64,000 nt of DNA from Phycisphaerales bacterium (GTDB lineage Bacteria; Planctomycetota; Phycisphaerae; Tepidisphaerales; Tepidisphaeraceae): NCBI GenBank assembly GCA_020847545.1, contig JADLBV010000070.1:1-64000 (forward strand). The letters run 5' to 3'. Below, piece by piece: positions 9,371 through 23,489 of the stretch (its first letter is position 1; every line of letters starts with the position of its first letter). The position numbers and the translations under genes were made by a program. Under the pieces are notes generated by a model. The model saw only the letters and a list, made by a program, of their open reading frames with translations. It did not search any database and was not told the DNA's origin.

Positions 9371-11620
9371 CTATCCGTGCAAAAACCGCGTCCCCACCTG
9401 ATAAACCGCTAGGCTCACCACATACGCCAGCGCGTTCATGTAGACCAGCATCACGAGCGGCCATTTCCACCCACCCGTCTCACGGCGAACCACCGCCAAT
9501 GTACTCATGCACTGCATCGCCAATACAAACCAAACCAGCAAACTCAATGCCACCACCGGCGTCCAAACCGCCCTCCCATCGGCATAATGATCCGCCCGCA
9601 TGGCATCTTCCAGCGGCGTCGCCTCCTGCTCCACATCGCCGACGCTGTAGACGATCCCCATCGTGCTGACAAACACCTCGCGGGCCGCAAACGCACCCAC
9701 CAACCCCACCCCCATTTTCCAATCATATCCCAACGGGCGAATCGCCGGCTCGATCAAATGCCCAAACCGACCCGCCACGCTGTAGCGCAACTGTTCGCCC
9801 GCGATGGCCGTATCGACATCCTGATTGTGCAACGAAGCCTGCTGTTCAACCTGTTCCACATGCGACTTGGGCATGCGCGGGTAATACATCATCGCCCACA
9901 GGATGACGCTCAAACAGAAAATCGTCGTCCCCGCCTTGGTCAAAAAGGCCTTGGTGTTGGTGAAGACGCTGCGCGCCACCTGCGATGCCTGCGGCATCTT
10001 GTAGGTGGGCAATTCGAGAATAAACGCGGGCTTGGGGCCTTTGAGCATGGAGCGTTTGAAGACCCACGCCGTCCCCGCCGCCGCCACGATCCCCAAGGCG
10101 TAGAGCGCCAGCATGATCCCGGCCTGTTTGAACGGTCCATAGGCCGCGAAAAACGTCCCGATCAGCAGCGTATAAACCGGCAAACGGGCGCTGCAACTCA
10201 TAAACGGCGCGACAAAAATCGTCGCCAGCCGATCCTTTCGGCTTTCGATGGTCCGTGTCGCCATGATGCCGGGAATCGCACAGGCGAAACTGCTTAACAG
10301 CGGAATGAAACTTTTCCCATGCAGCCCCACTTTGGCCAGCAGGCGATCCATCAAAAACGCCGCCCGCGCCAGATATCCGCTGTCCTCCAATATCGACAAA
10401 AAGAAAAAGAGGAGCGCAATCTGCGGCACAAAGACCACCACCGCCCCCACACCGGCGAAAATCCCATCGTTCACCAGATCACGCACCGGCCCATCGGGCA
10501 GCCACGACGCCACCTGCGCCCCCAGCCAACTGACACCCCCATCAATCCCATCCATCACCGGCTGCGCCAGCCAGAAAATGCTGACAAAGAGGGTCGCCAT
10601 GATGGCCGTGAAAATCAGCAACCCCCAGAACTTGTGAATGCAGATCGCATCGATCCGTTCCGTCCAGCTTCGAGATCGAACCTCAGCCTCCGGTGCGGCC
10701 GGAACCTTCGGCCCATCAACATGCCCCAACGCCCTGTCGCCGACCTGTTCAATCCAACGATAATGCGCCTCAATGTCCGCCTGCATCGGCTCGATGCCCA
10801 ACTGGCCCATCCGCCCCGCCGCGGATTTTAACAGGGAAGTCACCGGCTCTTTTTGCGACAATGACAGCAAATCCCCCGCGCGGTCGCCGATCAGCAGCCG
10901 CTCGGCTATCGCCTTGTATCGGTCCAGCAATCCCCCCTTTCCATTGCCGGTTGGCATTGAGTCTTTCGACTCATGGTCCTCAGGCCCATCGTGCAAAATC
11001 GCCAACCCGCCCCCCACCAGCATCAACTCCTCCTTCATCGCATCCGGCAACGGCCAATCGGGCATCGGCGCAACCTTCGCCTGCGCAATGACCTGCTTCA
11101 AATGCTCGATCCCCTTGCGTTGATGCCCCACCACCGGCACCACCGGCACGCCCAGCTCCCTGGACAACGCCTCGGCCGACACCGGCTTGCCGCGCTGCTC
11201 GGCCAAATCCATCATGTTCAGCGCCACCACCATCGGCCGGCCCAACTCGATCAACTGGCTGACCAGATACAAATTCCGCTGCAAATTGCTCGCGTCTACC
11301 ACCACAACCACGGCATCGGGCGCTGGCGTGTCCGCGCGCAATCCGCGCAACACCTCCATCGCCACCTGCTCATCGGGTGATCGGCTGATGAGGCTGTATG
11401 TCCCCGGCAGATCGATAATGTTGATCCATTGTCCCGATGGGAGTTTGCACCGACCGGTCTTCTTCTCGACCGTCACGCCGGGATAGTTGGCGACCTTCTG
11501 CCGCAATCCGGTCAGCGCATTAAAGAGGGTGGTCTTGCCGCTATTGGGATTGCCCGCCAACGCTACGGTCAACGTGGCTTTGACAACGGTGGTTTCGGGT
11601 TTTTCGCAACAGGAGGACAT
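9371..11620 (-). CDS. feoB: Ferrous iron transport protein B
   Basis: A 749-residue inner-membrane ferrous iron importer with an N-terminal G domain. G1 is GNPNSGKTT at residues 23-31, G3 is DLPGTYSL and G4 is NMMD; a helical GDI-like linker follows. The membrane part has two gate regions, including SCSARLPVY, and several long hydrophobic helices. ATG 11620 (MSSCC) is chosen because it sits at the usual distance from G1; a TTG at 11650 is in frame. feoA precedes it and a Cys-rich small protein follows, so this is a complete feo operon. The N-terminal CC pair is unusual and may bind metal. Confidence 0.95.
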   Translation of the reverse strand: MSSCCEKPETTVVKATLTVALAGNPNSGKTTLFNALTGLRQKVANYPGVTVEKKTGRCKLPSGQWINIIDLPGTYSLISRSPDEQVAMEVLRGLRADTPAPDAVVVVVDASNLQRNLYLVSQLIELGRPMVVALNMMDLAEQRGKPVSAEALSRELGVPVVPVVGHQRKGIEHLKQVIAQAKVAPMPDWPLPDAMKEELMLVGGGLAILHDGPEDHESKDSMPTGNGKGGLLDRYKAIAERLLIGDRAGDLLSLSQKEPVTSLLKSAAGRMGQLGIEPMQADIEAHYRWIEQVGDRALGHVDGPKVPAAPEAEVRSRSWTERIDAICIHKFWGLLIFTAIMATLFVSIFWLAQPVMDGIDGGVSWLGAQVASWLPDGPVRDLVNDGIFAGVGAVVVFVPQIALLFFFLSILEDSGYLARAAFLMDRLLAKVGLHGKSFIPLLSSFACAIPGIMATRTIESRKDRLATIFVAPFMSCSARLPVYTLLIGTFFAAYGPFKQAGIMLALYALGIVAAAGTAWVFKRSMLKGPKPAFILELPTYKMPQASQVARSVFTNTKAFLTKAGTTIFCLSVILWAMMYYPRMPKSHVEQVEQQASLHNQDVDTAIAGEQLRYSVAGRFGHLIEPAIRPLGYDWKMGVGLVGAFAAREVFVSTMGIVYSVGDVEQEATPLEDAMRADHYADGRAVWTPVVALSLLVWFVLAMQCMSTLAVVRRETGGWKWPLVMLVYMNALAYVVSLAVYQVGTRFLHG

Positions 11621-11676
11621 CTCCAGCCCAATGCTGAATTTCCAAGTCAATCCTACACGGCGTCATGGGGAAACAA

Positions 11677-11961
11677 TTACCGCGAGGCGGGAAGAATATT
11701 CACATGCCGGGCCTGCTCATCACGCAGCGACAGGTGATAGCCGCGCAGGCGAAATTCGATCGGATCCCCCAGCGGCGCCCGCCGGATCACTTCCACATTG
11801 GCGCCGTTGCAAAATCCCATCTCCAGCAGCCGACGGCGCAGATCCATATCCCCCCCCACCGAATGCACCTGCCCGCAACACCCAATGCCAAGACGATTCA
11901 ACGTGCAGGTGCGGGGGTCATCACACTGATTACAGGATTCAACCGTGCAGAATTTCCGCAT
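11677..11961 (-). CDS. feoA: FeoA-family protein with Cys-rich N-terminal extension
   Basis: A 94-residue protein with an SH3-like FeoA domain over about residues 30-92 (RRLLEMGFCNGANVEVIRRAPLGDP, then IEFRLRGYHLSLR). FeoA works with FeoB in ferrous iron uptake on the cytoplasmic side. It is longer than the usual 75 residues because of an N-terminal extension with cysteines at 5, 10, 13, 19, 28 and 29, which could bind iron or an Fe-S cluster. It is the first gene of the operon; feoB follows after 56 bases. Confidence 0.88.
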   Translation of the reverse strand: MRKFCTVESCNQCDDPRTCTLNRLGIGCCGQVHSVGGDMDLRRRLLEMGFCNGANVEVIRRAPLGDPIEFRLRGYHLSLRDEQARHVNILPASR

Positions 11962-12094: not shown

Positions 12095-12754
12095 TCAGGC
12101 CGCCAGTGGCGCCTGGGGTGTCGTCACCGCCGACTTGGTGTTGGTGATAACCACCGTCTCCCACAGGTCGATGCTTTCGAGTTTGTAGCGGTAGTCGATT
12201 TCCACACCGGTCCGACGAACCAAATCCTGCAACGGCAGATCGCTGCGCCAACCCAGGCGGGTGCAAAGCGGACAAAGCCATTTTTCCAACAGCGCGATAA
12301 ACCGGTTGGTCGACTGAAAATGGTTCAAAATGACGATCCGCGCATTGGGCTTGGCCACGCGCTGGGCCTCGCTGATCAGGCGATACGGATCGCTGACGAC
12401 GCTGATCACATGGCTGATGAAAATATGATCAAAGGTGCTGTCGGCAAAGGGCAGCCGCAACGCATCCCCCTGAAACACCACGGCATGATCCATCCCGTTT
12501 TCGCGGATTTTCTTTCGGCATTCGCGAAGCATCCCGCTGGACAGATCAACGCCGACCACCTTGCCCCGTCGCGGATAAAAATTCAACGACGCCCCCGTCC
12601 CGATCCCCAAATCCAACACCCGGTCGCTTTCGGAAATGTTCATGTGCGACAAGGCGCGCGCGATCCGACGTTTCACCAGCCGCCCGAAGGTGGCATCATA
12701 AAACATCGAATGAAAATCATAAATCAGCTTCGTGCTGGATTCTCGCATTGCCAC
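12095..12754 (-). CDS. SAM-dependent methyltransferase, phospholipid N-methyltransferase-like
   Basis: A 219-residue class I methyltransferase. Motif I is VLDLGIGTGASLNFYP, motif II is VVGVDLSSGML, and FDHIFISHVISVVSDP is the later strand-loop. The N-terminal YDFHSMFYDATFG and the hydrophobic, Cys-bearing LLEKWLCPLCTRLGWR resemble PmtA-type phosphatidylethanolamine N-methyltransferases; a UbiE-like quinone methyltransferase is the alternative. The neighbouring divergent cardiolipin synthase supports a phospholipid role, but this is inference. A GTG at 12754 is preferred, with AAGGG eight bases upstream; ATG 12748 also fits. Confidence 0.7.
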   Translation of the reverse strand: MAMRESSTKLIYDFHSMFYDATFGRLVKRRIARALSHMNISESDRVLDLGIGTGASLNFYPRRGKVVGVDLSSGMLRECRKKIRENGMDHAVVFQGDALRLPFADSTFDHIFISHVISVVSDPYRLISEAQRVAKPNARIVILNHFQSTNRFIALLEKWLCPLCTRLGWRSDLPLQDLVRRTGVEIDYRYKLESIDLWETVVITNTKSAVTTPQAPLAA

Positions 12755-12916: not shown

Positions 12917-14332
12917 ATGGCGTTCATGCGGGTGACCGATGCCGATGATTTCGCCATTGCACGAGCGTTCAAGCCGAACGTGGTTGAACGCGATGCCGAT
13001 GCGCCCCGCAGGGTGGGAACCTCCAGCGGGGTCAACATTGAACCGGGCAGCGACGATGATGGGTGGGTGGTTCCCCATCCGGTGGGTCTGGGGGATGGAT
13101 CGCGTGTGCAGCTTTACAAGGATGGCCAGGCCCTGCACGCCGCCTTTGAGGCGATCGCACAGGCAAAATTCCGCATCTGCCTTGAAGTTTATATCTTCGC
13201 CGGCGACCAGACCGGCAGGGCTTTTGCCGACCTGCTGAGCCGAAAATCCCGCCAAGGGGTCGATGTCTACCTGATCTACGACTCCTTCGGATCGAGCGGT
13301 TCGGATCGGGCGATGTTCCGCCAGATGCGCGATGCGGGGGTTCATCTACAGGCGTTTCATCCGATCCGACCCTGGGAAAACCGTTTCGGCTGGCGGCCAT
13401 TCAACCGCAACCACCGCAAACTGCTGGTGATCGATGACAACATCGTCGGCATGGGAGGGTTGAACATCGGCTCGCAATACGCCGGCTCGTGGGTGGTCCC
13501 ATCACAGGGTTCCTGCGCCGAATTCTGGCGCGACAACGCCATCGGCATCGTCGGGCCGGCCGCACGGCGGTTTTTGCACGCTTTTGCAAAGTCCTGGCAT
13601 TATGTTTCCACCGGCGGGCGCATCGGCAAGGCAGAATACATCTACAACCTAGGCTCCATCGTCCCACAGGCAACTCAACTTGAAATGCGCCGATCCGCGC
13701 GACGATCAAACCAATCCCGCCGACCGACCTGGGCGGGAACCAAGGCGGGCTATCACGGGGCGCTTGACCTCCCCGCAACACACCGTGAGGGGGACTTGGG
13801 AATTCTGGCTTCGGTGCCGACGGTCTTCAGCCCATTGGCCGAGTTTTTCCAGAATCTGATGCAACGGGCGAACAAAAGCATCGATCTGACCATGGCTTAT
13901 TTCGCCCCCTCCGACCTGCTGATCAATGAATTGTGCCGGGCGGCCAAACGGGGCGTGCGCGTCCGCCTGATGCTGCCGGGCAAGAGCGACCTGCCGATCC
14001 TCACCTGGGCGGCGCGGTCGTTTTACGAAAAGATGATGAGCGCGGGAGTTGAAATTTACGAACGACAAAGTGTGGTGCTGCACGCCAAGACGCTGGTGAT
14101 CGATTCACAACTGGCGGTGATGGGATCGGCCAACCTGGACTATCGCAGCATCGAATACAACCTTGAAATTTCGGCGCTGATCCACTCGGGCGAATTCGGC
14201 CGACAACTCAACGACCTGTTTGACAACGATGTCATGTACGCCAAAAGGATACAACCCTCCGAGTGGCGCAAGCGACCCAACATCGACCGCCTCATCCAAT
14301 GGGCGGTCAACCGGGCGCGGTATCTGTTGTAA
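12917..14332 (+). CDS. Cardiolipin synthase (phospholipase D family)
   Basis: A 471-residue PLD-superfamily enzyme with two HKD motifs: NHRKLLVIDDNIVGMGGLN in the first half and LHAKTLVIDSQLAVMGSAN in the second. Such proteins condense two phosphatidylglycerol molecules, or phosphatidylglycerol with another phospholipid, into cardiolipin. Unlike E. coli ClsA it lacks N-terminal transmembrane helices and so resembles the ClsB type. A basic insert (RRSARRSNQSRR) at about residues 259-270 lies between the two halves and may touch the membrane. It is divergent from the methyltransferase gene and convergent with the GTPase pair, which starts one base after its stop. Confidence 0.88.
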   Translation: MAFMRVTDADDFAIARAFKPNVVERDADAPRRVGTSSGVNIEPGSDDDGWVVPHPVGLGDGSRVQLYKDGQALHAAFEAIAQAKFRICLEVYIFAGDQTGRAFADLLSRKSRQGVDVYLIYDSFGSSGSDRAMFRQMRDAGVHLQAFHPIRPWENRFGWRPFNRNHRKLLVIDDNIVGMGGLNIGSQYAGSWVVPSQGSCAEFWRDNAIGIVGPAARRFLHAFAKSWHYVSTGGRIGKAEYIYNLGSIVPQATQLEMRRSARRSNQSRRPTWAGTKAGYHGALDLPATHREGDLGILASVPTVFSPLAEFFQNLMQRANKSIDLTMAYFAPSDLLINELCRAAKRGVRVRLMLPGKSDLPILTWAARSFYEKMMSAGVEIYERQSVVLHAKTLVIDSQLAVMGSANLDYRSIEYNLEISALIHSGEFGRQLNDLFDNDVMYAKRIQPSEWRKRPNIDRLIQWAVNRARYLL

Positions 14333-16075
14333 TTACGCCGCCAGCGAATCCTTGAAATGGGCGATTCGTTCCATCAACTTCCCCATCCGGTTCCGTGACT
14401 GCCGAATGGGTTCGGTCAATGAAGCCAGCCACTGCGCCGCGGCGGCGGTCAGGTTGGTTGATGAGTCGGCATCAACCGCATTTTTCAACCGTTGAAGCTG
14501 CCTATCCACCCGGCGCTGGGTGTCCCAGCGGACATAAGCCCACAGGACAAAAAACCAGAGCAACAAAAATGAGGCGTTTTGCAGCAGAAATGTCACGCCC
14601 ATGATTCGCACCACCAGCAAACCCAGATGCGTCACCGATCCCCCCTGCCAGTCGCGCAAAACCGCTTCCAAAATGGGTTGCACGATCGGGAACCAGAGCA
14701 ACGCCCCCCATGTCAGGATGCTTCGCACAAACGCGGCGATGATGTTGTCGCGCCCCCCGACACGGTCGCTGAGCACCTGTCGTTGGCGCTGCACGACGGC
14801 CGCCATCGAACGGCGCAAATCTCCCACGGCTCCCTCGGCCCAGACCGATTCCCACAGTTTATGATCGCGATACAACTCCCCGATGGCCGGCGCGGATTGT
14901 TGCAGATGGGCGAATGTCGTCTGCACGGCCGATGACAAATCCCTCTCCCCTTCGCGCAGATACAAACTCACCAGCGCCTCAGGACCGGTCAACCCCTGCT
15001 GCTGCGGAATCGACAACCTTCTGCGCCACACCCCCACCAACGGCCCCAACACCGTGTGGACAATGCCGACAATCGGCCAGCGTTTCATCCGTCTTTGCTG
15101 ACATTCATCCACCAGCGCCAACCGATGGGCCGGATCATCCAGAATCGCCGGCACGGCCTCTTCCAACACAATTCGCCCCAATCGGTCGGCCACCTGTTCC
15201 TGCGCGTCAATTTCAAGTCGCTCCAGCCGTTTCAATCGGCCGGGCAAATCCTGATGCTCCAGCCAGTTGAGCACCGTCAACCCACGCTGCCGGCCGGCCC
15301 GTTGCACGGACTGATTCACGGCCTGTTCAGACTTTTGCCGCGACAACGCCTGCCGCAGTTCGGGCAGATCAAACCCCTCGCCTTGCGCGGCGCTCACCAG
15401 CCACACGCGCGGCGATGAGGGCAACGACAACACCTTGGCCAACCGCCGGGCATAATCATCACGCAATTCCTCGGCCGCCCCCTGCCCCTCGCGGGCGACC
15501 ACCTGATCGGCCTTGTTCAACACGAACAGAAAATTCTCCGGCGCGTTGCCGGCCGACACCTTTTTGAGCATTTCGCGCGGCTGCTGATCGGCATATTTTT
15601 CAACGCTCTGCACCCAAATTGGAAAGAGCATGTGCCGCAACATCCGGCGGGTGATCTCGACATGCTGCTGCCAGTGGCTGTCGATGTCGGGCAGATCCAG
15701 CAGCACCTGCTGTCGCAACGATTCAATCGTGTGCCCGATGAGCCGATACTGACCCGGTACTTCCTGTTCCAAAAGCGCCTTCAACGGTTCAATCTGCGCC
15801 TGATGCGCATAGGCGATGACCTGATGCGTGCCGGGGCCGTGGCTGGATTGTTCGGTGATGGATCGGCCGACCAGCGCGTTGACCAGCGCGCTTTTGCCAA
15901 CTTCTTTTCCACCGATCAGGCCGACGAGATAAAATCGATCCGCTTGCAGGGCATCATCGCGCAACACCGGCGCATCGTCGCGGACCATTTCCGGCCTCTG
16001 CGCGCCGGTGAGCGCCATCGTCTGTTTGACCAGTTCCATCAAGGTTTCGCCGGTGGGTGGATTGGGATTGCTCAT
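14333..16075 (-). CDS. Dynamin-like membrane GTPase, second of a pair
   Basis: A 580-residue protein. G1 is GGKEVGKS at residues 55-62, G3 is DLPDID at 127-132 and G4 is NKAD at 187-190. A long helical region follows, then two hydrophobic stretches near residues 450-475 and 505-530 (FLLQNASFLLLWFFVLWAYV) that should insert in the inner membrane, and a helical tail. This resembles bacterial dynamin-like or YfjP/YkrA-type membrane GTPases. Its ATG overlaps the stop of the upstream GTPase gene by four bases (ATGA), so the two products are probably made together and may pair as a heteromer. The true partner and function are unknown. Confidence 0.72.
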   Translation of the reverse strand: MSNPNPPTGETLMELVKQTMALTGAQRPEMVRDDAPVLRDDALQADRFYLVGLIGGKEVGKSALVNALVGRSITEQSSHGPGTHQVIAYAHQAQIEPLKALLEQEVPGQYRLIGHTIESLRQQVLLDLPDIDSHWQQHVEITRRMLRHMLFPIWVQSVEKYADQQPREMLKKVSAGNAPENFLFVLNKADQVVAREGQGAAEELRDDYARRLAKVLSLPSSPRVWLVSAAQGEGFDLPELRQALSRQKSEQAVNQSVQRAGRQRGLTVLNWLEHQDLPGRLKRLERLEIDAQEQVADRLGRIVLEEAVPAILDDPAHRLALVDECQQRRMKRWPIVGIVHTVLGPLVGVWRRRLSIPQQQGLTGPEALVSLYLREGERDLSSAVQTTFAHLQQSAPAIGELYRDHKLWESVWAEGAVGDLRRSMAAVVQRQRQVLSDRVGGRDNIIAAFVRSILTWGALLWFPIVQPILEAVLRDWQGGSVTHLGLLVVRIMGVTFLLQNASFLLLWFFVLWAYVRWDTQRRVDRQLQRLKNAVDADSSTNLTAAAAQWLASLTEPIRQSRNRMGKLMERIAHFKDSLAA

Positions 16076-17766
16076 GGCCTCATCTCCTCCACCGACTGTT
16101 GCAACCGGTCCAAATCAATTTCGCCCGGAACCCGACCATCAATCCAATCACACACGCGCTCAACCTGTTGCTGCGCCAGTTCGGCGAACCGTTCGGCGAT
16201 GCGCGCGTTGGCCTTTCGGGTTCGGGAAGCCACTTCGTTGCTCAACCGTTCGGTCAACCACGTCGCCAGCGTCCAGCCCCCCAGAATCATCAGGTCAATA
16301 TGCCCGAAAAACGCGTGATGGGTCGCCACCACAACCGCCAGCAGATAAGGTGCGGCCTCGGTCCACTGGGCCAGCTTTTTGCCACCCGGCAGGTGCTTGA
16401 TCAGCTTCATCAAAATGGCCGTGTCGCGCGGCGTCGCGTTCCAGCGCTGCTCCAACCATTGTTTAAGCTCCGCCAATTCCTCCTGCGCAATCGCTCCCGC
16501 CTGATCGACCGGCAGCAATGATTCGCGATAGGCCGGCTCCTGTTGTTCAACCCAGCGCTGGCCGGTGGCGTTGGAACGTATCAGATCGTCCATCCGGCTG
16601 TGCAGAATCTTGAACTGATCACAGAGGATGGCCGAAAAATCCGGCACTTCCCGCGCATCGCCCGGCATGGATGGATCATCCAGACTCGGCTTGTCACCCT
16701 GAATGACAAAATCCCAAGCCGTGCGCGGCAACCGGGCGATCAATCCCGGAACCTGCCGCACCCGATCCAACACCCGCTGCGGCCCCATCAGATACAACAC
16801 GCTGCGCTGCTGCAATCGACGCTGCAATTGCTGCGTGACCGGATTCACATCCACCCCCGGCTCCGGGGCGATCAGCAAACGCAACGATTGCATGAGGTGT
16901 TGCGCCTCGGTGCGCATCTGGCGCAACGGGTTGATGATCTGATCCTGCAATCGACCGGCCAGATCGTCCGCGCGAAGATTGATCCCCTCAACTCGCGGCG
17001 GCTGTTTCCAAGCCGGATCGCCCAGCACCTGCCGCAATGCGGCCAAATTCGCCTCCACCGGCGGCTCATAGGCCGCATCATCGCGCGGAACGGCGAATAT
17101 CCTCGGCTCCACCCACCCCCGGCCAGACAATTGCTGCGCGTAATCATCCAGCACCGCGGATTCTTCGCACTTGTTCATGATGAACAACGCCCCCACCGCA
17201 TATCGCTGTGCCAGCCGATAATACGCCGACAATTCCGTCATCTGATATTTTTCAGGCGTCACCACAAACACCAGCCCCTGCGCCCATCTGAAGGCTCGAT
17301 CCGCCTGTTCATGGTGCATGGGCTGGTCCCCATCCACATCGGGCGTATCCACCAGCACGATATGCTCTGTCAATTCCGACTCGGCCGGCGCGATGATCAG
17401 CGCCTCACCCCGCCCGGCCGATGGAATGTGTTCGGCCAGACTATGTTCCACCCCCAGCCAGCCTGCCGGCACATCGCCCGGCCCCCGCGCCGCCGCCACA
17501 GCGCCGGCGGTATACGTTCTTCGATAACTGGTGGCGGAAATCTCTTTACCCAGCAGTCGGTTGACCACGGTGCTTTTGCCCGTCCCCGTGCCACCTATAA
17601 CGACGATGATCGGTTTGTCCCCCGCACGATGTCGCAGATGAAACCGCAGCGCCGCCGCATCTGCACGCCAGCGTTGCATCGCCTTGGCCAATGTCGGCTC
17701 CGCGCGCAGACCCGCCACGAGGGCTTCGGCCTTTTGCACGCGCATGTCCAGTGTGTCCCGCGCCAT
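16072..17766 (-). CDS. Dynamin-like membrane GTPase, first of a pair
   Basis: A 564-residue GTPase. G1 is GGTGTGKST at residues 58-66, G3 is DTPDVDG at 140-146 and G4 is NKCE at 198-201, where the usual final aspartate is glutamate. The switch region holds TSYRRTYTAG. A long helical stalk follows, then a hydrophobic region at about 490-525 (YLLAVVVATHHAFFGH, LMILGGWTLATWL) and a helical C-terminus. It is the first gene of a translationally coupled pair with the GTPase at 14333. Next to cardiolipin synthase, a role in membrane shaping or lipid handling is plausible but inferred. No clear ribosome binding site precedes ATG 17766. Confidence 0.72.
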   Translation of the reverse strand: MARDTLDMRVQKAEALVAGLRAEPTLAKAMQRWRADAAALRFHLRHRAGDKPIIVVIGGTGTGKSTVVNRLLGKEISATSYRRTYTAGAVAAARGPGDVPAGWLGVEHSLAEHIPSAGRGEALIIAPAESELTEHIVLVDTPDVDGDQPMHHEQADRAFRWAQGLVFVVTPEKYQMTELSAYYRLAQRYAVGALFIMNKCEESAVLDDYAQQLSGRGWVEPRIFAVPRDDAAYEPPVEANLAALRQVLGDPAWKQPPRVEGINLRADDLAGRLQDQIINPLRQMRTEAQHLMQSLRLLIAPEPGVDVNPVTQQLQRRLQQRSVLYLMGPQRVLDRVRQVPGLIARLPRTAWDFVIQGDKPSLDDPSMPGDAREVPDFSAILCDQFKILHSRMDDLIRSNATGQRWVEQQEPAYRESLLPVDQAGAIAQEELAELKQWLEQRWNATPRDTAILMKLIKHLPGGKKLAQWTEAAPYLLAVVVATHHAFFGHIDLMILGGWTLATWLTERLSNEVASRTRKANARIAERFAELAQQQVERVCDWIDGRVPGEIDLDRLQQSVEEMRP

Positions 17767-17828: not shown

Positions 17829-18329
17829 CTACGAGACCATTGTGCGGATCAGGAAAAAGAGAACCAGGATCGCCGCCACCACGCCGCCGATCAGCAGCCA
17901 AAACCGCTGTTTATGGGCGATTTCCTCCGCTTCGGCCTGCGCCGCGGCGATGCGCACCACCTCGCGCTTGGCGGCGGCCTTGCGTTTGGTCACGCATGGC
18001 TCGCACAGTTGGACATCTTCGTGGATCTGAAGCTTCGCCAGCGCGAACATTTTGCCGCAATCAGGACACGCCAGCTCGTGCACCCCCTGAATGGTGGTCC
18101 CGCTGAGTGTTTGATTGTGCTTTTTCTGCTGGTCCGCCATGCCGCACTCGTAGCACCAATAGCGCCCGGAATGGTCCTTCATGCGCGGCTTGCCGGAAAC
18201 ATTTTCGCCGCAAACGCAGCAGACCTTGGTGGGCATTGCCACCACGCTGTCGCTCAGGTTGATCGATTGCGGACTGGAGACACGCTGGACGTCGGTGTTG
18301 TCCAGATCGTCGCGGGTTGTGCTGCTCAT
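17829..18329 (-). CDS. Zinc-ribbon protein with C-terminal membrane anchor
   Basis: A 166-residue protein. Residues 37-65 hold CCVCGENV and YWCYECGM, and residues 87-112 hold CPDCGKMF and LCEPC, giving two likely four-cysteine zinc-binding units. A charged helical stretch (residues 113-140) leads to a C-terminal transmembrane helix (FWLLIGGVVAAILVLFFLI), so the zinc ribbons face the cytoplasm. No known function. ATG 18329 has AGGAGG six bases upstream. It lies 62 bases before the GTPase pair on the same strand and could be co-transcribed with it. Confidence 0.7.
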   Translation of the reverse strand: MSSTTRDDLDNTDVQRVSSPQSINLSDSVVAMPTKVCCVCGENVSGKPRMKDHSGRYWCYECGMADQQKKHNQTLSGTTIQGVHELACPDCGKMFALAKLQIHEDVQLCEPCVTKRKAAAKREVVRIAAAQAEAEEIAHKQRFWLLIGGVVAAILVLFFLIRTMVS

Positions 18330-18501: not shown

Positions 18502-19725
18502 ATGAACCGGGCTGGTGCGTTCCTGCTCATCTTGTTGACCATCGCTCTGGCCATCCGGCTGGGTTGGGCGTGGCATCAGCCGGCCGACGAAACGCTGTTA
18601 AGCAACCTGCCCGATCAAGTGGAATATCTTTCACTTGGCCGCAACCTCTTACACCACCATAGTTTATACTTTTACGACAATCGATTTGAGCAGGTGGTTT
18701 ACGCCTATCGCACACCGGGCTATCCGCTCTTTGTGGCCGCCTGTGGGGGGAATGTGGTTGTCATTCGGTTGGCGCAGGTACTGCTGGACACCTCAACGGT
18801 CTTGGCGATTTATCTGTTGGGCAGGCGGATCATTGGTAGAAGCCAATGGCTGAGCCTGCTGGCGGCGGGATTGGTGGCGTTCAATCCGTTTCTGATTTAT
18901 TTCAGCGGTTTAATTTTGTCGGAAACGTTGTTTACGTCACTGCTGGCCTGGGGCATTTATTTCATGGCGATCGCGGCCGGCAAACCATTGCGAATCGGCG
19001 CGGTCTTTACCGGAGGATTAGTTCTTGGGTTTGCGATAATGGTTCGCCCCTCGGCGATGCTTCTGCCGGTCCTCGTGCCGCTGGGGGCTTGTTGGATGAA
19101 CTTGGCAGGATCAAAAGCGTATCAAACTATACGCCGGGCGATGATTTTATCGGGCGTGAATCTGGCCCTGATGGTGATGATGTTGTTGCCTTGGGCGATT
19201 CGCAACCACAGGATATTGGGGCATTGGATTTGGACCACCACCAATAGTGGCATCACGGCCTACGATGGGTTCAACCCACAGGCGACAGGCGCTAGCGACC
19301 AGCGTTTTTTGCAAAATTTCGCGGGGGCGGATTTGAAACAGATGGGGGAAGTACAACGCTCGCGATATTTGCAGGTATTGGCTTGGGAATATGCGACGTC
19401 GCACCCGTGGCGGTCGGTGGAATTGGCGGCCAGCAAAATCGCCCGCACCTGGAGTCCCCTGCCGCTCAGTAACCAATTTGGCAGCAAGGGTTTATATGTC
19501 TTGGCGGCATTGTGTTACAGTGTGCCGTTTGACCTGTTGGCGCTGGTTGGATTGGGGCGGAGGTCGCTGGCACGATCCGCGAAAGTGTTCGTGCTGATTC
19601 CGGCGATATATTTTACAGTGATACATGCGATGTCCGTGGGTTCCTTGCGTTATCGCATACCGGTCGAGCCGCCCATGGCGATTTTGGCCGCCGTCGCATT
19701 CATTCGACGGCCCAAGGCCAATTGA
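18502..19725 (+). CDS. GT39/ArnT-like membrane glycosyltransferase
   Basis: A 407-residue protein with about ten hydrophobic helices and the layout of dolichyl-phosphate-mannose-protein mannosyltransferase or ArnT-type enzymes, which move sugars from a polyprenyl carrier outside the inner membrane. The first periplasmic loop holds DQVEYLSLGRNLL, with an acidic residue where GT-C enzymes place the catalytic site, then YAYRTPGYPLFVAA. A C-terminal hydrophobic block contains IPAIYFTVIHAMSVGSLRYRIPVEP, a sequence typical of this family. It is 15 bases upstream of the AsmA-like gene on the same strand. The acceptor is unknown. Confidence 0.75.
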   Translation: MNRAGAFLLILLTIALAIRLGWAWHQPADETLLSNLPDQVEYLSLGRNLLHHHSLYFYDNRFEQVVYAYRTPGYPLFVAACGGNVVVIRLAQVLLDTSTVLAIYLLGRRIIGRSQWLSLLAAGLVAFNPFLIYFSGLILSETLFTSLLAWGIYFMAIAAGKPLRIGAVFTGGLVLGFAIMVRPSAMLLPVLVPLGACWMNLAGSKAYQTIRRAMILSGVNLALMVMMLLPWAIRNHRILGHWIWTTTNSGITAYDGFNPQATGASDQRFLQNFAGADLKQMGEVQRSRYLQVLAWEYATSHPWRSVELAASKIARTWSPLPLSNQFGSKGLYVLAALCYSVPFDLLALVGLGRRSLARSAKVFVLIPAIYFTVIHAMSVGSLRYRIPVEPPMAILAAVAFIRRPKAN

Positions 19726-19739
19726 ATCGATGTAGATGA

Positions 19740-22700
19740 ATGTCCAATACGGCCTTTCAACCCGACCGCCTGTTTGACCGACCCTGGCGGCCGGGCCATC
19801 CATTCCAACCCAGAATGTGCGGGATGCGCCGATGGGGGATGATTGTTCTGCTGCTGCTGTTGACCGCGATCATCGGGGGGTATTTGTACATCACCGATTC
19901 CAATCGTGTGCGCGCCATGGCGGAAAGCTACCTGTCCAAGGTGCTGGGAGGACCGGTGGAGGTGGGGTCGGCGCGATTGTCGATTTTTGAAGGTTTGCGG
20001 CTTGAAGATGTCACAGTGCGGGTGGATCAGTCCACCAGCGAAGATTCGGTCATATTCACCGCGCAGTCGTTTGTGATCAAATACAATCCGCGTTCGATGC
20101 TCAAGGGGAGGTTGGACGCCACGCAGATCGTCGCGATTGATCCGCATGTTCGGCTGACTGAAAACCTGGACACGGGCAAATGGAATTATCAGCGGCTGGT
20201 GCGCGAGGATTCAACGCCCACCAGTTTGCCCACCGGCGGGGCGCAGTCGATTCATCCGCCGGAGATTCTGCTGCGAAATGCCCAATTTGATTACAGCGAA
20301 ATTCGCAATGGAAAGTTCATCCCGCGCGGTTCGATGGCGATTGAAGGGAGGCTTTGGCCGGGGTCGGAAACCAGCAGGTACAACTTTGAATTGCAAAGCC
20401 GTGGGGAATCGGAAGGGATCGGGCCGGTGGTCAGCGGGTCGGTGGTGCTGAACACGGGGCAGGTGAATCTGCGGCTGGAGAAATTCAGATTCGGGCCGGA
20501 CATTCGGTCGCTGTTGCCGGCGCAGGTGCGGCAATGGTGGGAGCAACATGAGCTGGAAGGGAGGGTGGACATACCGGAATTGTCGTTCATCCCGCCGCGA
20601 AATGGGAAAAATGCGACGTTTCGCGTCGAGACCGAACTGGATGGGGTGACGCTGGATGTGCGGCCGGATGAATGGAACAGCCGGGAGGAAAACGAGCGCA
20701 TCGCATCCATTCGGCGGACGTTGAAACTGTTTGAGCAAGGTGGATTCAACGGCGGTGGCGTGGTGGACCCGTTTGATGTGATGTTTCATCCGCCGCCGAT
20801 CAAGGTGGAGCGGGTGTCGGGGACGTTTGTCTTTACGCAGGATGGGATTGAGATCAAGCAGGTGTCGGGGCGGGTGGAGACCAACGCATTTACCGGGCGG
20901 GGACGAATTGAAGGGTATTCCCCCGAAGCGGCGGCGTTTTTTCAGATTTCATCGCCGCAGACGGAAAACATTTTCATTCCACACGCGCCGAGGTATGTGA
21001 ATTCGATGCCGCCGCAGGTGCGCGAGGTGTATGACCGGTTTCGGCCCGAAGGGACATGCCGAATCTGGATGGAGCTTCATCGCGACAAGGCCGGGGCGAC
21101 GCCGCACATCACGGGTGAAATTCAGATCGTGGATGGGAAATTCGTCTTTGATCATTTCCCCTATCCGATGCGCAACGCCACGGGGCGGATTGTCATCGGG
21201 ACCGATTCGACCACCGGCCGCGAACGGCTGGATATTCAGGATTTGCGAGGACAAGGGGCCGAGGGTGGGCCAAATCAGAACAGTTACATTTACATCAACG
21301 GAAACATCACGCCATTAGGCCCATCGGCCGGTGTGCATGTGAAGGTGGAGGGCAAAAACATCTCCTCTGAGCCGCTGCTGCGGGGGGCATTTCCGCCGGA
21401 GACGCAGGAGGCGTTGCGGCTGCTGGACCCGGATGGGAAGGGTGAATACCCGATCTTTCACGGCAGTTTTTTGTGCGAGGTGACCCGGCCCGAAGGGTAT
21501 CGCACGCACTGGACGATCAACACCGACATCCATCTGGAAGATGCCAGCGGCGCGTTGGTGGCGTTTCCATATCCGATGGAACACGCCAAGGCGACCTTGC
21601 AGGTGCGTGATGGGTATGTGCAGATCGTCGATGCGTCGATGCGCCGGGGTGATGCGAGTTTGACGCTCAATGGTCGGGTGAATTTCGGTCATGGGAAGCC
21701 GACGACGCCGGATTTGACCATCAAGGCGACGAACGTGCCGATTGATCAGCGGTTGCTGGATGCGCTGCCGGCCGACCGACGTGAATGGCTGCAAAAGGTC
21801 GGCTTGCAGGGAAAGCTGGACATTGAAGGACGGGTGTTTGCCGATCCGACCACATCCGAGGCGACGACAAGGCCGAGCACGGCCATCGGCGAGATCGACC
21901 ATCTGGGGTTGGATTTGAACATTCACCTGCATGAGGGGTCTATCTGGCCGGTGGATGGAATATTCGCGGTGAGTGATTTGTCGGGTGAAATGGTGCTGAC
22001 GCCCGGCCGACTGGGGATCAAGGAATTGACCGGTCAGCGCGGCGAGGCGCAGGTCAAAGTCCGCGGGGCGATTTCATGGGATGACAACACCCCCCGCGCG
22101 GTGCTGAACGCATCGGCCACCAATCTGCCGCTGGATTCGGCGTTGTACAAGATGCTGCCGAAAAAGGCGCAGGAGGGTTGGGATCAGGTCAGCCCGCAGG
22201 GTTCGGTGGATGCGGAGATCAATTTCAGCGGCCGATTTTCACAGGCGACCACCGCGCCGGCGGATGAGGCCTCGGCCGCCGGATTTGAAGTCACGCTGCA
22301 TCCGCGGCAATTGACGCTCACCCCCAGCGTGCTCCCCTATCGGCTGGACGAGGTCAAAGGGGCGATCACGATTCTGGCCGACAAGGTGCTGTTGAAGGAG
22401 ATGACCGCGCGGCATGGGGATGCGGTTTTGCATTTTGGCGGCACGGGAAAACTTGGAGATTCCACAAACTGGGATTTGAAACTGTCGGCCGATGATCTGC
22501 CGGTGGATCAGGATTTGCTCAAGGCGATGCCCAAATCGATGGCGTCGCTGTTTGAGAACCTGAAAGTGGGCGGGAAACTGTCGTTTGCGTTTGACAAGTT
22601 GCTCTATCAGCAGAAGGGGGCGAATGATGCGGATGTTGATTTTGCCGTGAAATTGACCCTCAACGACAGCCGGATGGAGGTGGGGATGTCGATGAGCGAT

Positions 22701-23489
22701 GTGGAGGGTGGCATTGATCTCAGTGGCACGGTTCGTCATGGGAAACTGGGCGAATTGCAGGGTGAGGTGAAGATTCCGAAATTGAAAATCGCCGGTCGAT
22801 CCAGTGGGAATTTTGAGGCGCGGATCGACAAGTCGGCCGATGAGTCGACGGTGAGGCTGAGCAAAATGCGGGCCGATCTGGCCGGTGGGGACATGGCCGG
22901 AAAGGTTGAGGTGTCGTTTCCGGACGATGGCCCATCCGGTTATGCGATGTCGCTCCTGTTGCGCAACGCCTCGGTGGCGGAACTGGCCGGCGAGCGCGAG
23001 CCGGAATTGAAAGGTCAACTCAGCGCCTCACTGGACCTGGAAGGGAATTGGGATGATCCCGCCTCGCGGCGCGGGCGGGGAGATGTGCTGGTCAACGGCA
23101 AGAACATGTACCGCATTCCGGTGGTGCTGGGGTTGTTGCAGATCGCCAATTTGTCGCTGCCGATCAGCAGTCCGTTCACCGAGGCGACGACGCGCTACAT
23201 GGTGCAGGGGCAGACGGTGACGTTTGAGAACATTTCGCTGCGTTCATCCAACATGGTGATGCAGGGAAACGGTTCGCTCGATTTCAATACCCGCAAGGTG
23301 GAGCTGGTCTTTACCACCGACAATCCCAATTGGCCACGGCTACCGTTCATTCAGGATTTGATCGAAGGGGCGCGCCACGAATTGCTGCAAATCCATGTGC
23401 GGGGGACCATTCAGGATCCCAAAGTCTCAGCGACGGCCATGAACACCGTCACCACGACGGTGGATGAGGTTTTCCGCGAAGATCGATAG
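19740..23489 (+). CDS. AsmA/TamB-like large envelope protein
   Basis: A 1249-residue protein with one N-terminal transmembrane segment (about residues 33-52, GMIVLLLLLTAIIGGYLYI), followed by AsmA-type sequence (VRAMAESYLSKVLGGPVEVGSARLSIFEGLRLEDVTV) and a very long periplasmic part of beta-rich repeats. The C-terminus (VVLGLLQIANLSLPISSPF, then GNGSLDFNTRKVEL) matches the end of AsmA-like proteins. This superfamily is thought to bridge the periplasm and carry phospholipids to the outer membrane. The start may be ATG 19740 or a later one at 19815 or 19824. It follows the GT39-like gene. Confidence 0.8.
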   Translation: MSNTAFQPDRLFDRPWRPGHPFQPRMCGMRRWGMIVLLLLLTAIIGGYLYITDSNRVRAMAESYLSKVLGGPVEVGSARLSIFEGLRLEDVTVRVDQSTSEDSVIFTAQSFVIKYNPRSMLKGRLDATQIVAIDPHVRLTENLDTGKWNYQRLVREDSTPTSLPTGGAQSIHPPEILLRNAQFDYSEIRNGKFIPRGSMAIEGRLWPGSETSRYNFELQSRGESEGIGPVVSGSVVLNTGQVNLRLEKFRFGPDIRSLLPAQVRQWWEQHELEGRVDIPELSFIPPRNGKNATFRVETELDGVTLDVRPDEWNSREENERIASIRRTLKLFEQGGFNGGGVVDPFDVMFHPPPIKVERVSGTFVFTQDGIEIKQVSGRVETNAFTGRGRIEGYSPEAAAFFQISSPQTENIFIPHAPRYVNSMPPQVREVYDRFRPEGTCRIWMELHRDKAGATPHITGEIQIVDGKFVFDHFPYPMRNATGRIVIGTDSTTGRERLDIQDLRGQGAEGGPNQNSYIYINGNITPLGPSAGVHVKVEGKNISSEPLLRGAFPPETQEALRLLDPDGKGEYPIFHGSFLCEVTRPEGYRTHWTINTDIHLEDASGALVAFPYPMEHAKATLQVRDGYVQIVDASMRRGDASLTLNGRVNFGHGKPTTPDLTIKATNVPIDQRLLDALPADRREWLQKVGLQGKLDIEGRVFADPTTSEATTRPSTAIGEIDHLGLDLNIHLHEGSIWPVDGIFAVSDLSGEMVLTPGRLGIKELTGQRGEAQVKVRGAISWDDNTPRAVLNASATNLPLDSALYKMLPKKAQEGWDQVSPQGSVDAEINFSGRFSQATTAPADEASAAGFEVTLHPRQLTLTPSVLPYRLDEVKGAITILADKVLLKEMTARHGDAVLHFGGTGKLGDSTNWDLKLSADDLPVDQDLLKAMPKSMASLFENLKVGGKLSFAFDKLLYQQKGANDADVDFAVKLTLNDSRMEVGMSMSDVEGGIDLSGTVRHGKLGELQGEVKIPKLKIAGRSSGNFEARIDKSADESTVRLSKMRADLAGGDMAGKVEVSFPDDGPSGYAMSLLLRNASVAELAGEREPELKGQLSASLDLEGNWDDPASRRGRGDVLVNGKNMYRIPVVLGLLQIANLSLPISSPFTEATTRYMVQGQTVTFENISLRSSNMVMQGNGSLDFNTRKVELVFTTDNPNWPRLPFIQDLIEGARHELLQIHVRGTIQDPKVSATAMNTVTTTVDEVFREDR

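Follow-up and report, generated by a model that had tools for sequence, protein, structure and literature searches.

A divergent pair of dynamin-like GTPase genes co-retained in an order of planctomycetes

Bacterial dynamin-like proteins (DLPs) are few and poorly understood. They are usually encoded as operon pairs (PMC6104087, PMC4159319), and the window analysed here, a 64,000-nucleotide stretch of a 3.75 Mb draft genome, contains two adjacent genes for large GTPases, raising the question of whether these form such a pair and which process they might serve. A preliminary description of the locus had suggested that they form a lipid-linked module with a neighbouring cardiolipin synthase and a phospholipid methyltransferase-like gene, fitting the endomembranes of planctomycetes.

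Sequence features and predicted folds of the pair

Both genes lie on the reverse strand. GTPase A (16072..17766; 564-aa ORF) has N-terminal helices, a GTPase domain at about residues 50-250, long helices and a weak hydrophobic stretch at about 476-495. GTPase B (14333..16075; 580-aa ORF) has a GTPase domain at about 48-245, a helical bundle, a hydrophobic hairpin at about 445-512 and C-terminal return helices. The genes sit side by side, as in known DLP operons, and the stop codon of A and the start codon of B share an ATGA (16072..16075; TCAT on the forward strand). The two proteins have only the GTPase domain in common (hhalign E = 2.9e-14 over 188 columns) and are thus not recent duplicates. 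The open reading frames, the shared bases and this restricted alignment therefore bear out the earlier statement that two different GTPases are joined by an ATGA overlap. Conservation of A and B at roughly 33-57% identity across the order places the pair beyond chance. A search of PHROGs gave no match.

The motifs of A are GGTGTGKS (G1), DTPDVDG, EKYQM and NKCE (G4), and those of B are GGKEVGKS (G1), DLPDIDS, EKYAD and NKAD (G4). The G1 P-loop is invariant among the aligned orthologues of both. G4 reads N/TKxD in nearly all B orthologues, whereas in A it is mostly NKxE, with some NKxD, and is often lost in Desulfobacterota; this difference suggests that A and B may have unequal roles. Switch II (G3) is DxPD followed by xD in 18 of 18 A and 19 of 19 B orthologues aligned, and likewise in 7 of 7 A and 7 of 7 B from Desulfobacterota. 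DxPDxDS also appears in two actinobacterial pairs (L083 and L084), and DTPDxDG and DCPDPDT in three planctomycete pairs (L087, L090 and L091). The planctomycete and Desulfobacterota branches also conserve a second motif, EKY. A and B have DxPD where the superfamily consensus is DXXG, a motif described as classical for switch II in the dynamin family (PMC4159319).

Sequence kinship to dynamins is weak. Pfam Dynamin_N scores 33.0 bits for A and 30.7 bits for B (cut-off 27), mostly over the P-loop. Sequence searches against the PDB, whether by single protein or by profile, returned mostly P-loop matches to general GTPases, so a comparison of folds was needed. AlphaFold models built from 11-12 sequences had a mean pLDDT of 72.8 and pTM of 0.65 for A, with poor confidence at residues 301-374 and 445-505, and a mean pLDDT of 78.5 and pTM of 0.57 for B. 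In both, the GTPase domain is flanked by long helices, which may correspond to a neck and trunk bundle, but at modest pLDDT, with low-confidence central stretches in A and low TM-scores. Foldseek searches of the PDB returned members of the dynamin superfamily or related large membrane GTPases as the best 44 matches for A and as the 50 matches listed for B, including mitofusin, IniA, BDLP, the Campylobacter DLP pair, DRP1, SynDLP, EHD and IRG; Der and other ordinary GTPases came further down the ranking.

The top matches of A were mitofusin 1 (7e-8), Mycobacterium IniA (6J72; 1e-7), BDLP and Cj-DLP2, and those of B were Nostoc BDLP1 (2J69/2J68; 7e-10, the best solved fold for B), Cj-DLP1 and SynDLP. 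Identity to BDLP1 and IniA is at most 14% over aligned columns, and their structures are of single-protein systems, unlike the A/B pair. Against known DLPs the TM-scores are low, at 0.2-0.36 by query, so that the assignment is to a fold class rather than to a close match. Within that limit, the dynamin-like character attributed to both GTPases in the preliminary description is upheld by the ranking, and neither model showed a soluble, non-dynamin fold. Judging from the models, A and B would fold and work like DLPs; we do not claim canonical membership, given a switch II that lacks DXXG.

The same results bear on whether A and B might be signalling or assembly GTPases of the Era/Der kind, carrying a membrane anchor and regulating another process rather than bending membrane. 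The nearest solved structures by sequence are indeed Era, Der, EngB and FeoB, and the altered G3 may mean that dynamin-type hydrolysis does not occur. However, Foldseek ranks dynamins above those families, and the proteins, 560-580 aa in length, contain long helical stretches and a hairpin placed in the trunk. We regard this alternative as quite unlikely.

Membrane segments near the C terminus, described earlier for both proteins, are clear in B and weak in A. The window copy of B has hydrophobic segments at 445-463 and 493-511, and most B orthologues, those of Desulfobacterota included, have two such segments at the same place in the C-terminal third, forming a predicted hairpin where a dynamin trunk would bear its membrane-binding element. 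The best 19-residue mean hydropathy of the window copy of A is 1.47 (476-495), and it lies between 1.5 and 1.9 in many A orthologues, which have at most one segment by the same threshold.

Co-inheritance and related pairs

To assess conservation, we compared 26 genomes of the window's order. Both A and B were found in 20 and neither in the remaining 6, so that no genome carried one alone, in a count of species from one order that is uncorrected for shared ancestry. Four of the six pair-less genomes gave weak B matches (E = 1e-4 to 1e-6), which cover fewer than 80 positions around the P-loop and were read as generic. Genome completeness is no higher than 82% in three of the six and 83-86% in another two. 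In the sixth, G008, it is 91%, and a congener, G024, is likewise without A and B, which suggests a real loss in at least one case. The genes are adjacent in 13 of the 20 pair-bearing genomes and unlinked in 7 (G002, G003, G009, G011, G013, G015 and G018), with 1.3 Mb between them in the single-contig genome G013.

This strict co-occurrence, unlinked genomes included, supports an obligate partnership. Co-retention without linkage is a stronger argument than adjacency for joint function, and it speaks more strongly for an obligate heteromer than neighbouring position by itself would. Together with the published precedent for bacterial DLPs working as heteromeric pairs (PMC6104087), agreement across 26 of 26 genomes favours the earlier idea that the two proteins are paired, probably as a physical heteromer. 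Outside the order, one genome (G036) has A and B, which are adjacent there, and close orthologues are missing from most of the class's other families.

When related loci were searched for and scored with HMMs, pairs in the order A then B were recovered from Desulfobacterota, Methylomirabilota and Actinobacteria as well as from other planctomycetes. Within Desulfobacterota, every first gene is matched best by the A profile and every second gene by the B profile; the second gene of the actinobacterial and other planctomycete pairs has no clear assignment to either. The window's pair is part of a larger, unnamed group whose switch II is altered. A literature search, itself incomplete, found no earlier account of such pairs in planctomycetes.

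In one class of Desulfobacterota, A is present in 30 of 56 genomes. A DUF4126 membrane protein is encoded just upstream on the same strand in 24 of the 28 of these that could be scored (the other two have no upstream sequence), and a PpiD-like chaperone, a SurA_N/rotamase protein, is usually encoded downstream of B, giving a conserved DUF4126-A-B(-PpiD-like) gene string (L081:8842-13339 and L129-L156). Our literature search yielded no account of what DUF4126 does. This conserved membrane partner offers a direct experimental handle in Desulfobacterota. Three genomes of that phylum (L132, L133 and L136) contain A and downstream sequence with no adjacent B, a counterpoint to the A/B partnership. 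As a partner in the window's own order, DUF4126 was rejected: it occurs in only three genomes there, G008 and G024, both without A and B, and G022, which carries the pair; the genome of the window is not among them.

Upstream of A in some genomes (L078:3103-3585, L130 and L147:3809-4303) we also observed a 160-aa protein with no Pfam match. It resembles only part of the DUF4126 proteins, suggesting that this part is the A/B-linked domain.

Neighbouring genes and the lipid connection

A cardiolipin synthase-like PLD protein (Cls; 12917..14332, forward strand; TIGR04265 E = 6.6e-69, below its cut-off) is encoded convergently with B and ends at the base just before the B stop codon. Beyond it lies a PmtA/UbiE-like SAM methyltransferase (Pmt; 12095..12754, reverse strand), and upstream of A lies the gene for a zinc-ribbon protein with one C-terminal membrane segment (17829..18329, reverse strand). 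This layout agrees with that described earlier; the methyltransferase's identity as PmtA does not hold up, as its best match, NF045882 (phospholipid N-methyltransferase PmtA), reaches 107 bits against a cut-off of 390, at which 'PmtA-like' seems a fair name and 'PmtA' an unsupported one. Further upstream, a gene for a PMT_2-type glycosyltransferase-like membrane protein (18502..19725, forward strand) diverges from A and is followed by one for an AsmA/YhdP-like large protein (19740..23489, forward strand).

We searched all retrieved A/B neighbourhoods by tblastn with Cls, Pmt, the zinc-ribbon protein and other window proteins. Outside the window, Cls, the zinc-ribbon gene and a close Pmt homologue accompany the pair only in G001, a relative of the same genus; elsewhere there are weak methyltransferase matches only. 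None of the other retrieved loci in the order has Cls or a close Pmt homologue next to the pair, and neither do the distant pairs. Most relatives therefore carry the pair without these lipid genes, the outcome that the preliminary description had itself named as contradicting its module, and we judge the arrangement of Cls, Pmt and the zinc-ribbon gene to be local to one genus and outside any module. Nor is an argument from planctomycete endomembranes needed, as similar pairs occur in Desulfobacterota and Actinobacteria.

One independent lipid-gene neighbour was seen in a Desulfobacteraceae MAG (L075, 2557-6683), where a PgsA-type CDP-alcohol phosphatidyltransferase is encoded directly upstream of the pair and the weak methyltransferase match downstream is UbiE. 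The feoA-feoB iron transport genes beside the window locus (9371-11961) were also considered as partners, but they lie near A only in G001 and G011 (L040) and were taken as chance.

The PMT_2 and AsmA/YhdP-like genes occur together beside A in 9 of the 18 genomes with enough upstream sequence, and they stay by A in three genomes where B has moved away (G003, G009 and G015). AsmA-like proteins are regarded as lipid carriers between membranes, so an envelope-lipid connection through this neighbour is possible; shared regulation across the divergent A/PMT_2 junction is unproven. These observations set the bounds of the lipid-module reading, according to which A and B would work with Cls and the Pmt-like enzyme and remodel membranes whose lipids those enzymes set. 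The gene order shared by the window and its one same-genus relative, the PgsA-type gene in L075 and the half-conserved AsmA-like neighbour favour it. Yet beyond that genus the two enzymes are missing from beside the pair, Cls is convergent with B and not co-transcribed, and in most Desulfobacterota pairs the neighbours are DUF4126, PpiD and housekeeping genes. We consider such a module very improbable.

Proposed function and comparison with known systems

We favour, as moderately probable, the reading that A and B are a divergent, unnamed heteromeric dynamin-like pair forming one membrane-remodelling machine at the cytoplasmic membrane. B, with its complete NKxD guanine motif, would be fixed in that membrane by the hydrophobic hairpin in its helical trunk; A, with a weaker G4, would be a mainly peripheral partner held at the membrane through B. 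In its GTP cycle the heteromer would act on the membrane by GTP-driven pairing of the A and B heads, pulling on, tethering or curving it. As to the cellular process, our guess is that the pair most likely maintains, fuses or closes membrane as the envelope grows and divides. The A-then-B order conserved across phyla supports a joint machine, whereas the weak sequence kinship (Pfam 30-33 bits), the low TM-scores and the DxPD in G3 count against a dynamin one.

A more specific possibility is that the pair is a division machine, one that performs or assists constriction or scission of the septum in bacteria that have no FtsZ. All 26 genomes of the order were searched for FtsZ/tubulin (PF00091) and none gave a match; of 14 controls, 13 were positive. 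A and B are a candidate membrane-shaping machine in this order without an FtsZ match. Streptomyces DynA and DynB provide a precedent, as they are partners in sporulation septation and stabilise FtsZ rings (PMC8748795). With FtsZ not found in the order, that mode of action cannot apply to A and B. Moreover, the absence of the pair from six genomes of the order and of close orthologues from most other families of the class indicates that it is not a general division engine, and the neighbours of the pair are not division genes. A division role is possible, and this patchy distribution speaks against an essential one; as an account of the pair, a division machine seems unlikely.

The resemblance to DynA/DynB, compared by description, otherwise extends to the presence of two different dynamin-like GTPases, one of which (B here, DynB there) has two membrane segments, transmembrane in DynB (PMC8748795). 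The actinobacterial pairs L083 and L084 share the DxPDxDS switch II.

Campylobacter Cj-DLP1/Cj-DLP2 (5OWV/5OXF) are likewise two different tandem DLPs, for which membrane tethering by the heteromer has been proposed. In Foldseek comparisons with 5OWV, the better match of B was chain A and that of A was chain C, chains that we take, by their lengths, to be Cj-DLP1 and Cj-DLP2. Unlike these, A and B have DxPD rather than DXXG, and there is no convincing sequence similarity between the two systems. B also has a predicted membrane hairpin, whereas Cj-DLP1 and Cj-DLP2 are reported to be cytosolic (PMC6104087).

E. coli LeoA/LeoBC is another tandem DLP operon, and A weakly matches the PADLOC profile of LeoA (E = 1.5e-9, residues 23-84) and also matches that of LeoBC (6e-5), raising the possibility of an anti-phage or stress-response dynamin pair. 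The LeoA match covers those residues, mainly the P-loop, rather than the full length, and B has no PADLOC match. We noticed no defence neighbours beside A or B, and retention in 20 of the 26 species of the order is not patchy and looks order-wide rather than island-borne. A defence role of this kind is thus extremely improbable.

A broader idea, tentative and in our view rather doubtful as a whole, extends the favoured membrane-remodelling pair to an unnamed, cross-phylum class of paired dynamin-like GTPases, marked by the DxPDxD switch II and, in the planctomycete and Desulfobacterota branches, by EKY. Its members would be obligate heteromers that run a GTP cycle without the usual switch-II glycine, work with DUF4126 in Desulfobacterota and shape or close the cytoplasmic membrane in FtsZ-less planctomycetes.

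Separately, we observed a distinct tandem GTPase pair, with proteins of 640-700 aa, in other planctomycetes (L087:5616-9504, L090:9725-13641 and L091:9713-13502), and second-type homologues were also seen in L092-L094, L096 and L098.
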